Shown here: one piece after another, positions 2,457 through 64,000 of the stretch
Layout of the letters: each line of letters opens with the position of its first letter
Position numbering within the stretch: position 1 is the stretch's first letter
Assembly (NCBI RefSeq): GCF_036194065.1
Contig: NZ_CP108095.1
Coordinates: 5,270,001 to 5,334,000 of the forward strand
Direction: 5' to 3'
From: Streptomyces sp. NBC_00239
Lineage (GTDB): Bacteria; Actinomycetota; Actinomycetes; Streptomycetales; Streptomycetaceae
Length of the DNA: 64,000 nt
The notes under the pieces: generated by a model
Databases searched by the model: none
What the model was told of the DNA's origin: nothing
The model's input: only the letters and a program-made list of their open reading frames with translations
Made by a program: the position numbers and the translations under genes

Positions 2457-3056
2457 ATGAGCACCACCAGAGCCGCCGCGCCCACCCGCCGCGAGCAGAT
2501 CCTCAGGGAGGCTGCCCGCCTCTTCGCCGAGCGCGGGTTCCACGGCGTGGGCGTGGACGAGATAGGGGCCGCGGTCGGCATCAGCGGTCCCGGCCTCTAC
2601 CGGCACTTCGCGGGCAAGGACGCCATGCTGGCCGAGCTGCTCGTCGGCATCAGCGAGCGGCTGCTGACCGGTGGCCGCTACCGGGTCGCCGAGGCCGCGG
2701 GCGACCCGGTCGCCGTGCTCGCCTCGCTCATCGACGGGCACATCGACTTCGCGCTCGACGACCGGCCCCTGATCACCCTGCACGACCGCGAACTGGACCG
2801 GCTCCGCGACGAGGACCGCAAGCTGGTGCGCCAGCTCCAGCGGCAGTACGTCGAGCTGTGGGTGGACGTCGTACGGCAGCTGCACCCGGCGGCGCCCGAG
2901 TCCGAGGCCCGGTCCGCCGTGCACGCCGTCTTCGGGCTGCTGAACTCGACCCCGCACCTCGGGGCCGCGCCCGGGGCCGGGCTGCCGGGGCGGGACGCGG
3001 CCGAGGGGCTGCTGCGCCGCCTGGCGCACGGGGCCTTCGGCGCGCTCTCCGACTGA
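2457..3056 (+). CDS. TetR family transcriptional regulator
   Basis: A 199-residue one-domain repressor. The N-terminal helix-turn-helix (residues ~10-56) is canonical: REQILREAARLFAERGFHG, then VDEIGAAVGISGPGLYRHF and KDAMLAELL. The C-terminal ligand-binding part resembles regulators of acyl-CoA carboxylase clusters. ATG 2457 is supported by a TAGAAT -10 element just upstream (leaderless). Divergent from accD1, with two 16-bp palindromes between, so it probably represses both itself and the carboxylase operon, released by an acyl-CoA. The ligand is not visible from sequence. Confidence 0.85.
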   Translation: MSTTRAAAPTRREQILREAARLFAERGFHGVGVDEIGAAVGISGPGLYRHFAGKDAMLAELLVGISERLLTGGRYRVAEAAGDPVAVLASLIDGHIDFALDDRPLITLHDRELDRLRDEDRKLVRQLQRQYVELWVDVVRQLHPAAPESEARSAVHAVFGLLNSTPHLGAAPGAGLPGRDAAEGLLRRLAHGAFGALSD

Positions 3057-3180
3057 CCGGCCCGCTGACCGCCCTGCCGTCCGGCCCGTCGAGCGGCCGG
3101 ACGGCGGGCGGTGGCGGGCGGCTGTCCGACCGGCGGAACGGATCGCCCGCCTCCGCGCGGACGGCGGCAGAATGGGCGCC

Positions 3181-3966
3181 ATGCCGATACCCAGCCGCGC
3201 CGCCCTGATCGAGCACCTCGTCCGCACGCGCATCGCCGGCGATGTCGCGACCCCGCGGGAAAACAACCTGAGCCACTACCGCAAGCTCGCCAACGGCGAC
3301 CGCCACTACTGGCTGGGCCTGGAGCTGGGCGACCGCTGGGCCGACGAGCAGGACGTGCTCGCCGTCATGGCCGAACGCTGCGGGGTCATCGACGACCCGG
3401 CGTTCCGGTTCGGCCAGGACACCATCGACCCCGAGCTGACCGTGGACGGCCTGGAGCGGATGGCGGCCCGGCTGCGCAAGGCGGCCGTGGACCGCCAGTC
3501 CGTCCTGCTGGCCACCGGGCACCCCGGCGGCCTGCTCGACGTCCACCGGGCCACCGCGGCGGCGCTGCGGGCGGCCGGCTGCGAGATCGTGGTGATCCCG
3601 CCCGGCCTGCACGCCGACGAGGGCTCCGTCTGGCAGTTCGCGGACGTGGCCGTCCAGGAGCGCGGCGCGACCCTGTGGCACACCCATTCGCCGTATCCGA
3701 TGGCCGCGATCCTCGACGGCCTCGCCGCGGCCGGCCGGCCGCAGCCCGACCTGGTGGTCGCCGACCACGGCTGGGCGGGCTGCGCGGCGCAGCGCGGCCT
3801 GGACGCCGTCGGCTACGCGGACTCCAACGACCCGGCGCTCTTCCTCGGCGAGCACGAGGGCACCGTCGAGGTGGTCGTCCCCCTCGACGACCACGTCCGG
3901 GACCCGCGTTTCTACGACCCGATGGTGGCGTACCTGCTCGCCGCGGCGGGCCTGCCGCAGGGCTGA
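3181..3966 (+). CDS. Conserved actinobacterial protein, often annotated as phosphatase
   Basis: A 261-residue cytoplasmic protein. I recognise it as a family commonly labelled phosphatase in Streptomyces, but no classical HAD, PAP2 or metallophosphatase motif is evident. Conserved-looking stretches are ATGHPGGLLDVH, a WHTHSPYPM segment and LVVADHGWAGCAAQRG; the His/Asp/Gly-rich pattern suggests a Rossmann-like fold with a phosphate- or metal-binding site. An in-frame ATG lies at 3172, but 3181 is preferred: CAGAAT at 3168-3173 forms a -10 exactly 7 bases upstream of it, giving a leaderless mRNA. It stands alone between a TetR gene and a DUF4253 gene. Function unknown. Confidence 0.65.
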   Translation: MPIPSRAALIEHLVRTRIAGDVATPRENNLSHYRKLANGDRHYWLGLELGDRWADEQDVLAVMAERCGVIDDPAFRFGQDTIDPELTVDGLERMAARLRKAAVDRQSVLLATGHPGGLLDVHRATAAALRAAGCEIVVIPPGLHADEGSVWQFADVAVQERGATLWHTHSPYPMAAILDGLAAAGRPQPDLVVADHGWAGCAAQRGLDAVGYADSNDPALFLGEHEGTVEVVVPLDDHVRDPRFYDPMVAYLLAAAGLPQG

Positions 3967-4953: not shown

Positions 4954-5826
4954 TCACCGGGGGACGCGAACGACACCCTCCTGGATGACGGTGATCGCGA
5001 GCTGCCCGTCCTGCGTGTAGATGCGGGCCTGGCCCAGTCCCCGGCCGCCGTGCGCCGACGGCGACTCCTGGTCGTACAGCAGCCATTCGTCCGCGCGGAA
5101 CGGCCGGTGGAACCACATCGCGTGGTCCAGCGAGGCGCCCACCACGTCGCCCACCGCCCAGCCGCCCCGGCCGTGCGCGAGCAGCACCGAGTCGAGCAGG
5201 GTCATGTCGGAGACGTACGTGGCCAGGCAGGTGTGCAGGAGCGGATCGTCGGCGAGCTTGCCCTGGGTCCGGAACCAGACCTGGGAGCGCGGTTCCACCG
5301 GTTCGCCGATGCTGCCCCACGGCGGGGTCGTCGCGTACCGCAGGTCCACCGCGGCGCGGGCGGCGAGCAGCCGCTCGACGGTGCCCGGATCGCGGAACAG
5401 CTCCCGGTACCGCGGGAGGTCCGCCGCGGCCGTGGGGAGGGACTCGGGGTCCGGTGCCGCGGGCATCTGCGCCTGGTGGTCCAGCCCCTCCTCGTGCGTC
5501 TGGAAGGACGCGGAGAGGTGGAAGATCGGCTGCCCGTGCTGCACGGCGACCACCCGGCGGGTGGTGAAGGAGCGGCCGTCGCGGATCCGGTCGACGGAGT
5601 ACACGATGGGTGCGCCCGCGTCGCCGGTCCGCAGGAAGTACGAGTGCAGCGAGTGCGCGGTCCGGTCGGCGGGCACGGTCCGGCCGGCCGCGACGAGGGC
5701 CTGCGCCGCGACCTGGCCGCCGAAGACGCGCGGCACGAGGGAGGTCCGGCTCGTGCCGCGGAAGATGTTCTCCTCGATCTGCTCCAGGTCGAGCAGATCG
5801 AGGAGATCCGTGAGCGCTTCGTTCAA
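4954..5826 (-). CDS. tesB: Acyl-CoA thioesterase II
   Basis: A 290-residue double hot-dog thioesterase that hydrolyses acyl-CoA to free acid and CoA. It begins with the TesB-like LDLEQIEENIFRG and has HSLHSYFLRTGD, FTTRRVVAVQHG and the second hot-dog with SLDHAMWFHRPFRADEWLLY and QDG near the end. It starts 6 bases after the stop of the acyl-CoA dehydrogenase gene, so the two form an operon. Its position beside fatty and branched acyl-CoA genes fits a CoA-recycling role in beta-oxidation. Length and motifs are normal. Confidence 0.9.
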   Translation of the reverse strand: MNEALTDLLDLLDLEQIEENIFRGTSRTSLVPRVFGGQVAAQALVAAGRTVPADRTAHSLHSYFLRTGDAGAPIVYSVDRIRDGRSFTTRRVVAVQHGQPIFHLSASFQTHEEGLDHQAQMPAAPDPESLPTAAADLPRYRELFRDPGTVERLLAARAAVDLRYATTPPWGSIGEPVEPRSQVWFRTQGKLADDPLLHTCLATYVSDMTLLDSVLLAHGRGGWAVGDVVGASLDHAMWFHRPFRADEWLLYDQESPSAHGGRGLGQARIYTQDGQLAITVIQEGVVRVPR

Positions 5827-50720: not shown

Positions 50721-50743
50721 GGGGGTGACGAAGGGGAAGAGTG

Positions 50744-50785
50744 TGCCCCCGGCAGGACTCGAACCTGCGGCCAAGTGCTTAGAAG
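50744..50785 (-). tRNA. 3' half of tRNA-Arg (TCT anticodon loop): attachment-site remnant
   Basis: Minus strand reads anticodon loop CTTCTAA, 3' anticodon stem GCACT, variable loop, T stem-loop GCAGG-TTCGAGT-CCTGC, acceptor strand CGGGGGC and discriminator A. Upstream of the loop the 5' anticodon strand (should be AGTGC) is replaced by unrelated GGTCA, and there is no D arm or 5' acceptor. It is therefore a truncated copy, expected at the far end of an element integrated into tRNA-Arg. The intact gene should lie at the right end, outside the window. Anticodon read as TCT. Confidence 0.75.
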
Positions 50786-51014
50786 TGACCGGCTCCGTCC
50801 TGCCCCACACGCCCCCTGACCTGCACGGCAGGGCGGTGCTGTCGCACCGGGGCGGGGCTGCGCCCGCATATCCACCGGAACTTAGGATTCCGGCGTCTGG
50901 GCGTGCCCGGCGTAGGGTTCTCCAAGTCAGTCGCGGGTCGTGCCGGGTGCGGGGCCTGGTATTGACCACTTCGACGGGCATACGAAGCGCGGGGTAGTCC
51001 CGTAGACTCCGGCC

Positions 51015-52406
51015 ATGTTGGCTCGCCTGCCCTCGCGCTATGAAGACCTTGATCCCGCTTTTCGTGGACGGCTGCGTCCCGATAGGCAACTCTTGGAGCA
51101 GGTCCAGCGCGCCCACGCAAGTATGCAGATCACTGGCGGTATCCGCTTTCTTCCCATTTTTGGGCGAAGCGGATCGGGGAAGAGTTCAGCGGCCCGGGAA
51201 TTGGCCACACATCTTCCCGAATGCAAGGTCGTTGAGCTCTCGCGTGCGGCGATCGCATCCGAGTCCGCACTACTCGAAGAGCTCCGCGCTGTTGACGGAT
51301 ACCGCGACAAAGCGCAGCTGATAATTGCCGTGGTGGATCAGTTTGAAGAGCGCGTGGCAGAAAAGACGGCGTTGCCATCCCAATTTGTTGAGCGGCTGAG
51401 CCTTCTCGACAGGGGAGAGCTGCGGCAGCGGCCCGTTCTTTTTCTTTGGTTGACCACTAGTAGGGAATTCCAGGCAGATCTGGCGGGCGCTACGTCGCGT
51501 AATGAGCGAATCCTTCTAAGCGCCGACTTTGAGCTTTCTGGCCCGCCGAGAAGTGATTGGGCGGAAATCCTCGAAGAGACGTTTGCATTCCATAACCGGA
51601 GTCAACCTCTCGCCGACTTCGAGGTGCTGACGACCGATGTCAATAGGATCGCCGATCAGGCAGTCACCATTGGGGCATCGATCGAGATGGTGGCAGAAAT
51701 GCTAGCGTCGTACACGTCGAAGTTGCACGACATCTCGCGCTATCAGGTAGTAATGCTTTGGCCTGTTACGGATGGGCATCGCATCACGCGTGTGTCCAGC
51801 TTCACTAATGCGCGCGATGGGTACAAGCTGGACTGGAATGCATTCTATCGAGAGTTGAACGAGGATGACCGTCAGACGTTGCCTCTGTCGGAGCTGAATA
51901 GGGCTCGTCTGTATTTCGACGTTCGACTCGTTCCCATCGCTGCGGCCGACCTTCATCCTCTCTGTCGGGAACTTGATAGGCGTGAAGTCGAACCCAGCCG
52001 CTCCTACTTGGAGCGCTTCGAGAAGTCGCATTTTGTTTCCATTGTCGGCGAGAAGTGGGATCCATCCGTCTTTAGTCCTCTCCGTGAGCGGGAATCCGAG
52101 AGAGCCACTAAGGCGCGGGACTGGTACGAAGGTGTCACCACTCAGCCCACCCAGCTGGGTACGAGGATTGCGCTCTGCCTTCGCTCCCTTGGTTTCGATG
52201 CCGAGGCAGAAAGGGAAATTAAGACTCCCAATAGCAAGGTCAGGGCGGATGTCCTGGTGCAGCGCCCGGGATCTCAGCAAGATTCTGTGATCGTGGAGCT
52301 TAAGGCGTACTCGACGGAAAATACGCGCCCCTCTTCCATCAAGGACGCAATCCGGACAACTCTCAAGCGCCATGCCCAGCTAGCGGGATTCCTGGGGCGC
52401 CAGTAA
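51015..52406 (+). CDS. STAND-like P-loop ATPase fused to C-terminal PD-(D/E)XK nuclease; candidate defence protein
   Basis: A 463-residue protein in three parts. Residues ~40-200 are a P-loop ATPase: Walker A GRSGSGKSS (G50-K56-S57), Walker B LIIAVVDQFEE (D108, E111/E112; the DQFEE form is typical of STAND ATPases), sensor strand VLFLWLTTSR (~141-150). Residues ~240-330 form a beta-rich middle part I do not recognise. Residues ~380-463 fit a PD-(D/E)XK nuclease: helix TRIALCLRSLGF, E401, D412 in RADVLV, E428-x-K430 in VIVELKAYS. The gene is visibly AT-richer than all neighbours. TAGACT (51003-51008) 6 bases before ATG gives a leaderless start. As cargo next to the att site, an anti-phage role is likely but not shown. 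Confidence 0.75.
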   Translation: MLARLPSRYEDLDPAFRGRLRPDRQLLEQVQRAHASMQITGGIRFLPIFGRSGSGKSSAARELATHLPECKVVELSRAAIASESALLEELRAVDGYRDKAQLIIAVVDQFEERVAEKTALPSQFVERLSLLDRGELRQRPVLFLWLTTSREFQADLAGATSRNERILLSADFELSGPPRSDWAEILEETFAFHNRSQPLADFEVLTTDVNRIADQAVTIGASIEMVAEMLASYTSKLHDISRYQVVMLWPVTDGHRITRVSSFTNARDGYKLDWNAFYRELNEDDRQTLPLSELNRARLYFDVRLVPIAAADLHPLCRELDRREVEPSRSYLERFEKSHFVSIVGEKWDPSVFSPLRERESERATKARDWYEGVTTQPTQLGTRIALCLRSLGFDAEAEREIKTPNSKVRADVLVQRPGSQQDSVIVELKAYSTENTRPSSIKDAIRTTLKRHAQLAGFLGRQ

Positions 52407-52644
52407 GAGGAGCCCGGAGCGGCCAATGGGAGTTCCTGTTGGTGGACCGCCCGTGACTTGGGGCGCCTCTAGGCCTGCCCGCGCAGCCCGCTGTAGGCCC
52501 AGTGAATGCCTTTGCCTTGCGTCTGCTCCTTGCGCCTACGGGATCTGTGATTTCGAGCGGCACGGTGCCTGCGCTGGACGTCCAAGAGTGAAGTGCCTTC
52601 GTGCGAGGGTGGAAGTCAACGCGCGAAGCAGAGAAGGAGATGGA

Positions 52645-53112
52645 GTGTCGGAGCAGCCCAGCCCTCGCGGGACCTTCCTGAAGATCGCTGACACGCTCAA
52701 GAAGCGGATCACTGCGGACCAAGGGGTGACCGAACTTCCTTCCCTTGCTGAGGTCATGGCAGAGCACGGTGTGTCGCGCGGTGTGGCCCTTCGAGCCTTC
52801 CGCGTGCTTCAGCAGGACGGTGTGGCTGAGCCGGTTCCGGGATCGCGCTGGCGGGTACTCCGCGGGGACGGCAAGGCAGACCGCCGGCCGCTGGCTGAAC
52901 GGATCGCGGCGCTGATCACGGCTGAGGGCCTGGACGTCGGGGCAGTCTTCCTGAGCGAGGGAGAGCTGAGTGCCAGGCTCGGGGTGTCGCGTCCCACGAT
53001 CAGCAAGGCACTCGCCCACCTCGAAGCAGCCGGACTGCTCACCGAAGGCGGCCAGGGCAAGCGCCGTTCCGTGCGTGCCCTGCCGTCCCAACAGGAGGAC
53101 TCGAAGTCTTGA
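52645..53112 (+). CDS. Double winged-helix GntR-like regulator
   Basis: A 155-residue protein of two consecutive GntR-type winged helices and no effector domain: first LKKRITADQGVTELPSLAE with HGVSRGVALRAFRVLQQDG (~residues 15-60), second RIAALITAEGL with LSARLGVSRPTISKALAHLEAAGLL (~80-140). GTG 52645 has AAGGAGA at good distance; the frame upstream to 52426 is not gene-like. Its TGA overlaps the next start (TTGA), so it is translationally coupled to the HD gene. It may bind the palindrome at 55080-55104. The ~240 bases before it hold no gene. Confidence 0.75.
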   Translation: MSEQPSPRGTFLKIADTLKKRITADQGVTELPSLAEVMAEHGVSRGVALRAFRVLQQDGVAEPVPGSRWRVLRGDGKADRRPLAERIAALITAEGLDVGAVFLSEGELSARLGVSRPTISKALAHLEAAGLLTEGGQGKRRSVRALPSQQEDSKS

Positions 53113-53687
53113 GCACTGCCACGCTTACGGAATGGGCCTACGCCTTGGGGGAGGCCACGCTGGCCGAGCCGCTGCCTCGCCGCTGGCGGCACTGCTTGGG
53201 CGTCGCGGAGCGGGCCCGGGCCATTGCCGACATCCTTGGGCCGGACGCCGAGCTGCTCGAAGCGGCGGCAGTCCTGCACGACGTCGGCTACGCGCCTGAC
53301 TTGGCCAAGACCGGGTTCCATCCGCTCGACGGCGCCCGCTACCTCCGCAGCGTGCAGGCTGACGAGCGCGTCGTACGGCTCGTCGCGCACCACTCCTGTG
53401 CGTGGATGGAGGCGGAAGCCCGCGGGCTGCGCGAGGAGCTTGAGGCGGAGTTTCCGCGGGAGGAGCCGCACCTCGCGGACGCGCTCTGCTTCTGCGACAT
53501 GAACACCACGCCGGACGGGACCCCGACCAACCCCGTCGACCGGATCAACGAGATCGCGGGCCGCTACGGGCCGGAGAGCCTGATCGGGAAGTTCATCCGG
53601 CGGGCCGAGCCGGAGATCCTGCTGTGCACCGTGCGGGTGCTCACCAGGATGTCCGAGGCGAAGGTCGGCGCCGCTCAGCCGATGTAG
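53109..53687 (+). CDS. HD domain phosphohydrolase
   Basis: A 192-residue HD-superfamily protein. Metal ligands are spaced as usual: H28 in RRWRHCLGVAERA, the HD pair in AAAVLHDVGYAP (~residues 57-58), and later H96/H97 in RLVAHHS plus CDMNTTPDG. Members hydrolyse nucleotides or phosphoesters. TTG 53109 overlaps the stop of the GntR-like gene. Its 3' end overlaps the convergent NUDIX gene by 13 bases. HD and NUDIX genes side by side are typical of actinomycete integrative elements; the substrate is unknown. Confidence 0.8.
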   Translation: MSTATLTEWAYALGEATLAEPLPRRWRHCLGVAERARAIADILGPDAELLEAAAVLHDVGYAPDLAKTGFHPLDGARYLRSVQADERVVRLVAHHSCAWMEAEARGLREELEAEFPREEPHLADALCFCDMNTTPDGTPTNPVDRINEIAGRYGPESLIGKFIRRAEPEILLCTVRVLTRMSEAKVGAAQPM

Positions 53688-54148
53688 GGCACGCTCCGCG
53701 TCCGGTCCAGCGCGTGCTCGATCCGGAGCCGCATCGTGGAGTGGATGTCGAGTTCGGACAGGTCCGCTGGGTCCGCCCAGCGGACCTGTGTCGTCTCGCT
53801 GCTCGTACGGATCTCGCCGCCGGTCGGCCGTGCGCGGAAGCAGATGCTGAACTGCTGCCGGGCCTCGCCGTCGTCGTAGAGCATGACGTGACCGGGGTCC
53901 GTGTAGATCCCGGACATGTCGATGACCTCGGCCTTGATGCCGGTCTCCTCCCAGACCTCCCGCACGACGGTGTCACTGATCGACTCGCCTACGTCGTGCC
54001 CTCCGCCCGGAAGCGCCCAGCGGCCGTTGTCCGAGCGCTGGATCACGAGCACCTGGCCGGCGTCGTTCTGCACGAACGCCACGACGGAGGGCACGACCGA
54101 GTTGGCGGCCGGCGCGTCGGGGTCGTGCAGGTAGTCAATGCGTCCCAT
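53675..54148 (-). CDS. NUDIX hydrolase
   Basis: A 157-residue NUDIX protein with the full box GGHDVGESISDTVVREVWEETGI form (Gx5Ex7REUxEExGU, ~residues 50-72) preceded by RWALPGG. It hydrolyses nucleoside diphosphate derivatives. ATG 54148 has AGGAG 8 bases upstream and the start region overlaps the end of the HTH gene (TTGAGCATG), so the two form an operon on the minus strand. Similar NUDIX proteins occur in pSAM2-like elements next to replication control genes. Confidence 0.85.
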   Translation of the reverse strand: MGRIDYLHDPDAPAANSVVPSVVAFVQNDAGQVLVIQRSDNGRWALPGGGHDVGESISDTVVREVWEETGIKAEVIDMSGIYTDPGHVMLYDDGEARQQFSICFRARPTGGEIRTSSETTQVRWADPADLSELDIHSTMRLRIEHALDRTRSVPYIG

Positions 54149-54150
54149 GC

Positions 54151-54909
54151 TCAAACTCCTGTGAGGTCGTGGTCGGCCACCGGGCGGGCGCCGCCCCAGG
54201 TCTGTTCGATGCTATTGGCGTACGTGTCGAACAGCCCGCCGCCGGGCAGTCGGCGCAGGTGGAGCACGGGAGCCATGTACGCGCCGATCCCGTACACGTG
54301 GGTGTTCACCAGCATCTCGTCGTCCGCCCGGAACAGGGAGTTGTACAGCGTCGCGTCGTGCAGCCGGAACCCGATCTCGGGGTGGCTCGTGAAGAGCGGA
54401 CGGTAGTTCATCAGGGCATTGCGGATCTTGCCACCCATGATGCCGTGGCCCTCGTCGATGCCGCGCTGGTGCACCGCCGCGCAGGCGGGGTCTCCCAGGA
54501 GGATGCGCACCTGGGCAGTCTTCTCCACCTTGGCCTTGAGGAGCCGGTGGAACTGCGGGTCTTCCGACAGCCACAGCCCCGCGTACACGAGCACGTCGAC
54601 GTGCTTCTCGGCGCGGCCGTACATCTCGCGCCAGAGTCCGGTCGGGACCAAGTGGCGGTGCGGGTACACGGTGACGATCTCTGCCTTGCTCAGATCGGCG
54701 GAGGTCTCGACCGCGCGTTCGTCGTTCCAGAGCGTTGTCACGTCCACGCGCAGTTCGGCTGCGACGGCGTACTGGTGGCGCCGGTACGGGACCTTGCCCT
54801 GCGTGATCCAGCGTTCCACGGTCTTGGCGTTGACCCCGATCGCGTCGGCCAGTCTCTGGATCGTCATGCCCTGAGCCAGCAGGGCGGAGCGTAAGCGCTC
54901 GTTGGACAT
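54151..54909 (-). CDS. XRE-type regulator with large C-terminal domain (DUF5919-like)
   Basis: A 252-residue protein. N-terminal HTH: RSALLAQGMTIQRLADAIGVNAKTVERWITQGKVPYRRHQYAVA (residues ~5-50). The C-terminal ~180 residues (VTVYPHRHLVPTGLWREMYGRAEKHVDVLVYAGLWLS, VRILLGDPACAAV, HVYGIGAYMAPVLHLRR) resemble the DUF5919/PLD-like domain seen in many actinomycete XRE regulators; the HKD motif of true phospholipase D is not evident. ATG 54909 follows GGGGGTGA. First gene of the minus-strand operon with NUDIX, divergent from the transfer operon promoter. Confidence 0.75.
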   Translation of the reverse strand: MSNERLRSALLAQGMTIQRLADAIGVNAKTVERWITQGKVPYRRHQYAVAAELRVDVTTLWNDERAVETSADLSKAEIVTVYPHRHLVPTGLWREMYGRAEKHVDVLVYAGLWLSEDPQFHRLLKAKVEKTAQVRILLGDPACAAVHQRGIDEGHGIMGGKIRNALMNYRPLFTSHPEIGFRLHDATLYNSLFRADDEMLVNTHVYGIGAYMAPVLHLRRLPGGGLFDTYANSIEQTWGGARPVADHDLTGV

Positions 54910-60486: not shown

Positions 60487-62670
60487 ATGGGGCCGACCCG
60501 AGCACAGTTCATCCAGTACGCGCCCGCCGCTCTCGCGGTCGCCTCCGCCGCCGTCGGCCCCTGGTCCGCCCTCGCCGCCGGAGCCGCCGGAGCAGGAGCC
60601 TGGGCGCTCAGCACGTCCGCTCCTGCCCTGCGGTCCCTGATCGCCTGCGGGATCACCGCCACCGGGTGCGGCATCGCCGCCCATCAGATCCTGGCTACCG
60701 GCATGAACCCGCTGTTCGCCCTCGGGTTCGCCGTCCCGGCCGGGGCCGCCGTCCTGGCCCACCACCGCAATACCACCGGCCTCCCGACCCTGCCGGCCGT
60801 GGTCACCGCGGAGGCCCCGGCGGCCGGGCAGAGCTCGCAGGAGCAGATCATCACGGCGTGGTGGACGGAGTTCATCTGCGGCCCGACGCAGACCGAGGGA
60901 CGCAAGCTCATCCAGCCCGGCGCCGCCCTCGCGCACCTCGCCGTCGACGTCGGGGACGACCACCTGGCCTTCACCGGGATCATCACCCTGCCCCAGGGAC
61001 AGCAGGTCCGCGTGAAAGCCGCCGACATCGCCGCCGTCTACCAGATCCCCGTCTCCCAGATCGGGATGGGAGACCCCAAGCACTACGCACCCAACGCCCT
61101 CCCGATCACCGTCCACCTCAAGAAGGCACCGCCAGCGCCGCAGATCGCGGCCCCCGGCACCCCGACAACGCCTGAGCAGGTCTGGGCCGCGCACGTCGCT
61201 GTTCCGGATGGAGCGATGCCCGGCACCACCCTCACCCTGACCCGCTATGACGGGCCCCTGGACTGGGAGGGGATCGCCACCCGCGACCGGAAGGCGATCG
61301 GCACGGTCAACCTGCAGGACCTTGCCGGGAACCTCGATCTGGAGACCATCCAGATCGCCCTGGCCCCCGCCGACAAGCCCTCCCAGATGGGGGTGCGCGT
61401 CATGCGGGAGCACGCACTGATGCACGGCACCATGCTTTCTGCGGTCGCGGACGAACTGGCCATGGACGCGCGCGGGTACGTCCGCCTGGGCACTTACATC
61501 GACTCCCGCCCGGCCCTGGTCCCCCTGGCCCAGCCCGGATCCGGCGCCCGACACCTCTACCTCGTCGGCGGCTCCCGCTCCGGAAAGTCCGGAGTACTGG
61601 AACAGGTCCTGCTCTCCGCCCACCGCTCCCGTGTCGCCGTGATCCTGGCCTCCCCCCAGGCCGGAACCATCGCCGGAGCGGGCCTGGCCGCGTACTGCGG
61701 GGACGGCCTGGACGAAGCGATGGGCGCCCTGCGGCTGGCCTACGCGATGATGCTCGACCGCGAAGCCCGCTACCGCTCCCCGGCCTTCCCCTTCACCGAC
61801 CCGCTGATCCTCATCGTCATCGACGAAGCCCACATGCTCCTGTCGGTGGCCTCCCCGTACCACGCCGAGGCCAAAGCGATCGTGGAGCAGCTCACCCGCC
61901 GCTCCCTCAAGCGCGGGATCGGCGTGGTCCTGGCCACCCAGACCCCGCTCGCCGAAGACCTCGGCAACTCCACGATCATCCGCTCGCAGCTCCTGATCGG
62001 CGGCGGCGCCGTGTTCCTGCGCTGCGCGAAGGGCCAGGGCTCCCTGGTCGGCACGAACGCGGTCGAGGGCGCGGAGGGCATCGACTTGTCGATGATCCCC
62101 CCGCAGTGGCCGGGCCAGTACGCCAAGGTCGCCGACCGCGACATGACCGGCCTGGCCACCGCGTCCTCCGCCGCACCCGAGGACGGCACCTTCGGCCTCG
62201 GCTACCTCCTCACCCCCGGCTCCCAAGCCGTCCAATTCCGCTCCCTGCACCTCGACGTACCGCCCGCCTCCCTCGCCGGGTCGATGCCGCCAGTCGCTGT
62301 CGAGAACTGCCAGGCCTGGCAGCACCGGGAGGCCATCAGCAGCACCCCGGTGGTCGACCAGCGCGGCAAGAACCTCGTCGGCAGCCTCACCGACCTCCTC
62401 GCCAAAGCACAGCAAGAACCGACCGCAGCAGACCAGCCCCGGACCGCCGCCGGCCACGCCGGGGCCGTCGGTGCTGCGGTCCCTCCCGACGGACAGGAGC
62501 TGATCAAGCCGCGAATCCTCGAACTCCTTCGAGACGAGTCCATCCCCATGACCGCCGAGACCATCGCCCGCAAGCTCGGCACCACCGCGAAGAACATCAA
62601 GCCCCGCCTGTCCGAGCTGAAGAAGCGCGACGAGATCACCAACGAAAACGGACTCTGGAGGGCCGCATGA
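60487..62670 (+). CDS. traB: TraB-type FtsK/SpoIIIE DNA translocase
   Basis: A 727-residue conjugation ATPase that pumps double-stranded element DNA between hyphae. Two to four N-terminal membrane helices (~residues 10-95: YAPAALAVASAAVG, ALRSLIACGITATG), a linker domain (~110-330), the FtsK motor with Walker A GGSRSGKSG (~residues 358-366), Walker B LILIVIDEAHMLL (~439-451) and the QTP-type motif ATQTPLAEDLG, then a C-terminal winged helix (~670-727, LIKPRILELLRDESIPMTAETIARKLG) that in TraB proteins reads short repeats at the clt site. AAGGGAG precedes ATG 60487. Its ATGA overlaps the next start. Confidence 0.88.
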   Translation: MGPTRAQFIQYAPAALAVASAAVGPWSALAAGAAGAGAWALSTSAPALRSLIACGITATGCGIAAHQILATGMNPLFALGFAVPAGAAVLAHHRNTTGLPTLPAVVTAEAPAAGQSSQEQIITAWWTEFICGPTQTEGRKLIQPGAALAHLAVDVGDDHLAFTGIITLPQGQQVRVKAADIAAVYQIPVSQIGMGDPKHYAPNALPITVHLKKAPPAPQIAAPGTPTTPEQVWAAHVAVPDGAMPGTTLTLTRYDGPLDWEGIATRDRKAIGTVNLQDLAGNLDLETIQIALAPADKPSQMGVRVMREHALMHGTMLSAVADELAMDARGYVRLGTYIDSRPALVPLAQPGSGARHLYLVGGSRSGKSGVLEQVLLSAHRSRVAVILASPQAGTIAGAGLAAYCGDGLDEAMGALRLAYAMMLDREARYRSPAFPFTDPLILIVIDEAHMLLSVASPYHAEAKAIVEQLTRRSLKRGIGVVLATQTPLAEDLGNSTIIRSQLLIGGGAVFLRCAKGQGSLVGTNAVEGAEGIDLSMIPPQWPGQYAKVADRDMTGLATASSAAPEDGTFGLGYLLTPGSQAVQFRSLHLDVPPASLAGSMPPVAVENCQAWQHREAISSTPVVDQRGKNLVGSLTDLLAKAQQEPTAADQPRTAAGHAGAVGAAVPPDGQELIKPRILELLRDESIPMTAETIARKLGTTAKNIKPRLSELKKRDEITNENGLWRAA

Positions 62671-63388: not shown

Positions 63389-64000
63389 ATGACCCACCCG
63401 ACCCTGATCCGGCGAGAGCACACGGACAACGACCGTCCGCTGTTGCTGGACCTGTTCTGCTGCGCCGGCGGCGCGGCCATGGGCTACCACCGCGCCGGAT
63501 TCACCGTCCACGGCGTCGACAAGGTCGACCGATCCGCCCGCTACCCGTTCGCGTTCCGGCAGGGAGACGCCCTCACCATCCTCGTCGACCTGATCGACTC
63601 CGGGGAGATCACCGCGTACTCCCTGATCCACGGCTCCCCGCCCTGCCAGGACCAGTGCACGCTCACCGTCGGAACCAACCGCTCCCAGGGCTGGGGCGGC
63701 ACTCACATCGACCTCGTCGCCCCCACCCGGGAGCTGCTGGACGCGTCGGGGGTGCCGTACGTGATCGAGCAGCCCAACGGGAAGGCGAAGATCCGCAAGG
63801 ACCTGACCCTGTGCGGGGAGATGTTCGGGCTCGGGGTGCTGCGGCACCGGAACTTCGAACTCAGCGGCTGGACCACCAGCAAGCCCAAGCACCGCAAGCA
63901 CCGGGGGCGGGTCCGGGGGTGGCGGCACGGCGAGTACCACGAGGGACCGTACGTCGCCGCCTACGGCTCGGGTGGGGGCAAGGCGGACGTGGCGGAGATG
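63389..64000 (+). CDS. Cytosine-C5 DNA methyltransferase, N-terminal part
   Basis: Runs off the right edge; 204 residues visible. Motif I LLLDLFCCAGGAAMGYHRAGF binds S-adenosylmethionine (~residues 18-38); motif IV GSPPCQ (~residues 82-87) carries the catalytic Cys; VIEQPNGKAK follows where motif VI (ENV-like) is expected, in a variant EQP form. GGAGG precedes ATG 63389. No restriction endonuclease is visible, so it looks like an orphan enzyme protecting the element or modifying host DNA. C-terminal target-recognition region lies outside. Confidence 0.85.
   Translation, partial: MTHPTLIRREHTDNDRPLLLDLFCCAGGAAMGYHRAGFTVHGVDKVDRSARYPFAFRQGDALTILVDLIDSGEITAYSLIHGSPPCQDQCTLTVGTNRSQGWGGTHIDLVAPTRELLDASGVPYVIEQPNGKAKIRKDLTLCGEMFGLGVLRHRNFELSGWTTSKPKHRKHRGRVRGWRHGEYHEGPYVAAYGSGGGKADVAEM

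Follow-up and report, generated by a model that had tools for sequence, protein, structure and literature searches.

Avs proteins, a class of signal transduction ATPases with numerous domains (STAND), place an effector at the N-terminus, the STAND module at the centre and a TPR-like sensor at the C-terminus, and a DQFEE Walker B motif is typical of the nSTAND1 group. DUF1703, which we take to be Pfam PF08011 (PDDEXK_9) together with PF09820 (AAA-ATPase_like), is a second point of comparison. The section of PMC1913061 dealing with DUF1703 describes an AAA+ domain first, a small helical region, and a restriction-endonuclease-like domain with a motif IV glutamine last; a Mrr-NACHT fusion is mentioned there as well. 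The pertinent part of the DefensePredictor study (PMC13092281) describes Escherichia coli systems in which PD-(D/E)XK and P-loop domains occur. Here we consider a single gene of Streptomyces sp. NBC_00239, lying in a stretch of 64,000 nucleotides (the window; contig NZ_CP108095.1, positions 5,270,001 to 5,334,000), whose product appears to join an N-terminal ATPase to a C-terminal nuclease and is a candidate for a compact defence protein.

The open reading frame begins with ATG and encodes 463 residues (Table 1). At 57.0%, its GC content is far below the window mean of 72.5%; just one of 62,609 segments of gene length has a lower value, that one overlaps the gene, and the minimum elsewhere is 64.7%. 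The preliminary description had called the gene AT-richer than its surroundings and had placed it within 230 bases of an attachment site, both rightly, the ATG standing 229 bp from the repeat end at 50785. The motifs it had picked out (Walker A at G50-K56, Walker B at D108/E111/E112, and D412/E428/K430) are likewise present, and G50, S52, G53, G55, K56, D108, E111, D412, E428 and K430 are invariant in an alignment of 33 homologues, drawn from 120 listed.

The N-terminus is a predicted AAA+/STAND-like ATPase, as judged from its Walker motifs and an RFC/ORC-like model. Walker A and a Walker B of the hhhhD type, the hallmarks of nSTAND1, are conserved. The window protein scores 25.0 bits with the Pfam nSTAND1 model, whose cut-off is 27.1; nearly all 33 members have weak matches to nSTAND1/AAA_16 (PF20703, PF13191), and precomputed annotation assigns PF20703.4 to the window protein and some homologues. 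As previously proposed, a Pfam search finds no TPR or WD repeats; a C-terminal repeat or superstructure-forming sensor is absent both from the matches to Pfam repeat families and from the secondary structure of the models, which shows no repeat array.

The C-terminus seems, from the order of its residues, to be a PD-(D/E)XK-like nuclease. The D...(D/E)xK catalytic residues are invariant (E399, D412, E428 and K430), and Q455 occurs in at least 90% of the homologues. The predicted order is helix 378-391, strands 395-403, 408-416 and 424-429, and helix 439-457, the same when the module is modelled alone; this is the helix-strand-strand-strand-helix succession with D on the second and ExK on the third strand, as read along the chain. 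Mrr_cat (PF04471) matches one of the 33 members, at E 0.0026, and reaches 13.2 bits on the C-terminal module against 21; PDDEXK_9 also reaches 13.2 bits there, against 25.5. Sequence searches gave no convincing solved homologue, and a viral fold library no match below E 0.001.

Between these domains lies the most conserved part of the protein. Mean pairwise identity per column is 0.58 for residues 1-236, 0.74 for 237-320, 0.54 for 321-376 and 0.60 for 377-463, and 28 of the 84 columns in 237-320 are invariant. The region around 240-330 had been called beta-rich, a view that AlphaFold models do not bear out: they show two strands of at least three residues (243-251 and 303-309) among several helices. 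This middle part, suggested earlier to be the sensor, is a putative one, but a fast-evolving sensor of phage proteins is unlikely because 237-320 is the most constrained part. The module does not resemble a receptor locked in an arms race with some variable phage protein; binding of a fixed ligand, or a structural function, would suit it better. The gene as a whole is under strong purifying selection, judged from low dN (the nonsynonymous substitution rate): the window protein is 87% identical to its homologue at locus L002 and 90% to that at L003 (DNA, 74% and 77%), with dN of 0.09 and 0.07, respectively. Whole-gene dS, the synonymous rate, is mostly not computable between the Streptomyces copies, and selection is quoted as dN only.

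Proteins picked by eye at each locus were scanned with PADLOC models at E<=1e-10, and at 7 of the 14 loci outside the window a neighbour matches a defence model. These matches are PDC-M68A at L002 (a 769-residue protein with an HNH-type N-terminus), PDC-M36A at L003 (Mrr_cat by Pfam), PDC-S37 at 1206 bits with ZorA, ZorB and ZorG of type III at L004, PDC-M48B at L006, AbiEii at L007, a QatC-like gene, PDC-S11 and an HsdR-like gene at L008, and a type II restriction enzyme and methyltransferase, a caspase, a TIR protein and PDC-S19 at L015. Outside this count fall L005, with PDC-S32 at 1.8e-10, and L014:2916-4175, a match to SspA/DndA that is probably a housekeeping cysteine desulfurase; four neighbours at L010 and one each at L009, L011, L012 and L013 gave nothing with PADLOC at E<=1e-5. 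In a controlled comparison, 110 neighbour frames from ten loci yielded 44 PADLOC families versus 15 from 108 control frames, taken from stretches of the same genomes and scored at E<=1e-10; RtcR-like matches in the test list were not traced to any locus. The association with defence genes is suggestive, not established.

Separately, some of these neighbours have features of their own. The 769-residue protein (L002:1206-3515) has weak AAA_16 and TPR matches and resembles STAND defence proteins that carry a nuclease effector. At L004:5035-18261, a broken homologue lies between genes matching ZorA/B/G of type III and a 1950-residue PDC-S37/Hhe-like gene. The short product of L008:8860-9858 is a chimera or fusion whose N-terminus is of HsdR/ResIII type and whose C-terminus is BrxL/Lon_C-like.

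We favour, with a probability of about 0.55, the reading that the gene encodes a self-contained, horizontally spread nuclease acting in defence or against mobile elements. A defence function is probable, if unproven, in view of the motifs, conservation, domain models, unit nature, mobility and rarity of the gene and of its neighbours at half of the loci. Several observations weigh against this: structural matches of the C-terminal domain to solved PD-(D/E)XK members are weak; generic models appear in both neighbour lists, the control also having caspase, HerA and AriA matches; and 18 of the 25 families listed (of the 44) trace to L004 and L007. The AAA+/STAND-like domain would bind, and probably hydrolyse, ATP and keep the protein inactive until a trigger contacts the invariant middle module; the ATPase would then change state, perhaps via oligomerisation, and the C-terminal domain would cut DNA, either that of the invader or the cell's own. 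ATP gating, DNA as substrate, the trigger and protection are all parts of this scheme that we infer. A bolder and rather doubtful form of the idea is an immune nuclease encoded by one gene that has its own promoter and moves alone between phyla, the trigger-sensing module being the protein's most invariant part. Such a protein would sense, through an undescribed module, a feature that invaders cannot easily alter, for example a DNA structure or a conserved host signal induced by infection. If the protein is defensive, its invariant recognition module would provide a direct way to ask which unchanging feature of infection bacteria sense; the gene's size of 1.4 kb makes testing easy.

The carrier of the gene appears to be an actinomycete integrative and conjugative element (AICE) of 18.0 kb, with the gene beside the attachment (att) site. 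Its two copies of a 44-bp repeat are 18.0 kb apart and bound the element, the partner of the window copy sitting inside an intact tRNA-Arg(TCT) gene, and these tRNA repeats enclose GntR and NUDIX genes, as is characteristic of AICEs. Gene content between the repeats agrees with the layout set out in the relevant part of PMC11706625, and tRNA-Arg is named as an AICE hot spot in the corresponding part of PMC9513070. A tyrosine-integrase-like gene adjoins the tRNA (Phage_integrase, 25.2 bits against 27.1) and a 555-residue protein is the candidate Rep; the Rep- and Spd-like genes have no Pfam match. Elsewhere the gene is found on one plasmid (L015) and in an integron-like array (L009). By eye, L006 lies near a tyrosine recombinase and L007 near a transposase. 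The L013 homologue is 112 bp from a tRNA-Pro, which was rejected as an att site, its 3' end not being repeated elsewhere in the 21-kb locus.

The nuclease might instead serve competition between elements, acting on other integrating elements or plasmids (such as DNA entering in mycelial conjugation) and keeping the AICE in place. Its position as cargo beside att and its carriage by a plasmid and by an integron-like array agree with this, as do the results of viral searches: 50,697 phage records gave no match, and the hits of two IMG/VR pattern scans encoded no relative. We nevertheless regard this explanation as unlikely, since the copies at L011, L013 and L014 are chromosomal and inspection of the fetched stretch by eye showed no element there, and neighbours match anti-phage models such as Zorya III, AbiEii and type II restriction.

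The Aromatoleum homologue (L009) appears, by attC motif and hairpin, to be an integron gene cassette. Pattern candidates for attC lie on the + strand at 321-413, 3014-3078 and 3366-3437, and a further site, seen by eye, lies 3' of the gene at about 1836-1905; when folded, three of these four sites score better than most shuffled sequences (z -2.5, -2.6 and -1.7), and the fourth fails to (z -0.3). The same pattern occurs once each in L002, L004 and L014 and twice in L012, where it looks like chance, and Rfam gave nothing at L009 at the gathering threshold. In Methylobacterium (L012) the site that holds the gene is variable and lies next to a duplicated block, and Rfam gave nothing at L012:4000-8600. 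The block itself, of about 230 bp (L012:4424-4660 and 5562-5796, 84-92% identity), borders variable inserts, and many of 41 Methylobacterium genomes contain a match to part of it.

At E<=0.001, two protein searches gave 513 and 502 hits; the lists cover the best 120 of each and may overlap. In the best 120 of the 513, identity to the window protein is 57-88%, self excepted, almost all near full length. Named hosts and loci belong to Actinomycetota, Pseudomonadota, Bacillota and Thermodesulfobacteriota. Two peptide patterns, run against 84,980 species genomes, picked up 13 loci, a lower bound, and each of 11 genomes re-searched holds one copy. A DNA search of E. coli genomes with one member, L004, found no match, and distant relatives are still possible there. 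In a tree of 37 rows, of which the long rows L010 and L011 are unsure, the main blocks sort by phylum, but some groups are mixed: Aromatoleum falls with Aeromonas (98/84), Anaerotruncus with Acinetobacter (92/89) and Electrothrix with Bacilli (85/82). The gene is rare, probably spread horizontally, and present in at least four phyla.

A DNA repair or recombination enzyme, useful under stress and spread as an accessory gene, would accord with the RFC/ORC-like model, the PD-(D/E)XK motif, the strong purifying selection and the nearly invariant middle module. The distribution makes such a role improbable: the genome on which each set was centred is the sole full match among 297 Streptomycetaceae, among 396 genomes of the phylum (where two more, weak matches are confined to residues 36-116), among 297 genomes of the Kineococcus order and among 369 of the Xanthomonas class. 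The gene is also broken at 3 of the 13 genome loci, by a stop in frame at L004 and into two pieces at L012 and L014, breaks for which either decay or sequencing error could account, and no partner gene recurs across the 15 loci. The seven neighbour pairs detected in these loci were identified by eye as regulators of GntR type, pieces of transposases and a NUDIX-like frame common to the window and L003.

The gene also behaves as a unit in its borders. DNA similarity among the window, L002 and L003 begins 12-19 bp 5' of the ATG and stops at most 1 bp from the stop codon, their other matches being a 26-27 bp piece of tRNA end and short backbone pieces; the drop in GC is confined to the gene at several loci (for example L007, L011, L012 and L014). 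In the window, L002, L003 and L015 (4 of the 15 loci, all actinobacterial), TANACT stands 6 nt 5' of the ATG with no Shine-Dalgarno-like word, against a background of 0.00005-0.00022 per site in these sequences, and the remaining 11 loci, including actinobacterial L010 with its unsure start, lack this arrangement. In the former hosts the gene may therefore have its own promoter and a leaderless transcript, although no promoter pair came out of a sigma-70 scan. A self-mobile or homing gene, copied through the break its own nuclease makes, would explain such gene-confined borders and contexts that vary from locus to locus, but it is highly improbable, as five loci have no convincing bounding repeats (a 17-nt GC-rich pair at L011 is probably chance), flanking sequence is not shared by eye, and at some loci a known carrier (AICE, plasmid or integron-like array) is explanation enough.

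Table 1. Features of the ATPase-nuclease gene and its carrier element (window positions).
Feature	Position	Strand	Remark
attL, 44-bp tRNA-Arg 3' repeat	50742..50785		identical copy at G000:C1:5338742-5338785, beyond the window
TAGACT, -10-like hexamer	51003..51008	+	exactly 6 nt 5' of ATG, Shine-Dalgarno-like word absent; promoter probably leaderless
ATPase-nuclease ORF (open reading frame)	51015..52406	+	463 aa; predicted N-terminal AAA+/STAND-like ATPase, C-terminal PD-(D/E)XK-like nuclease
Walker A, residues 50-57 (GRSGSGKS)	51162..51185	+	G50, S52, G53, G55, K56 invariant
Walker B, residues 108-112 (DQFEE)	51336..51350	+	D108, E111 invariant
Middle module, residues 237-320	51723..51974	+	mixed alpha/beta, most conserved part, matches no recognised family
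PD-(D/E)XK-like nuclease core, residues 377-463	52143..52403	+	E399, D412, E428-x-K430, Q455
AICE GntR regulator	52426..53112	+	ORF as listed; true start maybe further in
AICE HD-domain protein	53109..53687	+	
AICE NUDIX hydrolase	53675..54154	-	
AICE 727-aa P-loop protein, FtsK/Tra by position	60487..62670	+	AAA_22 only, 25.2 vs 27 bits; putative Tra
AICE C5 cytosine methylase-like gene	63389..64000	+	in the transfer/replication part of the AICE; continues past window end

Set beside known systems, the protein is close to several and identical to none that was compared. With the nSTAND1/AAA_16 STAND NTPases it shares Walker A and the DQFEE Walker B, whereas it has neither a TPR/WD sensor nor an N-terminal effector and carries its nuclease at the C-terminus. 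The preliminary description had named Avs (AVAST) as an example of STAND ATPases fused to nucleases, and an ATPase switch and a nuclease in one protein are common to both; the Avs order and repeat sensor are absent. As Avs proteins have the effector first and the repeats last, the window protein, with its domain order reversed, its 463 residues and no match to the PADLOC Avs models, is not an Avs. Compared with Mrr-type endonucleases, it shares the D and ExK motif and differs in its N-terminal AAA+ fusion and distinct middle module. DUF1703, within what the cited section of PMC1913061 describes, has the same domain order and the motif IV glutamine, but its Walker A is non-canonical where that of the window protein is canonical; membership was rejected on the PF08011 score given above and on PF09820, which is not among the Pfam matches listed. 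Assignment to a known defence family was likewise set aside, the only match being of Walker A to mad8 (E 0.012). The window protein reached none of the PADLOC 2023 models and came near the cut-off of no named NCBIfam family, and the literature consulted, mostly outside subscription papers and preprints, held no description that we recognised as this family, which is weak evidence. The earlier view of an undescribed compact defence protein therefore stands in that no known model is reached, but not for its architecture, the order of putative ATPase then nuclease being already described for DUF1703; its defence role is what we infer. In our judgement the protein is unusually compact for a STAND-like immune nuclease and, if defensive, it would be one that lies beyond the PADLOC 2023 and NCBIfam models and occurs in at least four phyla.
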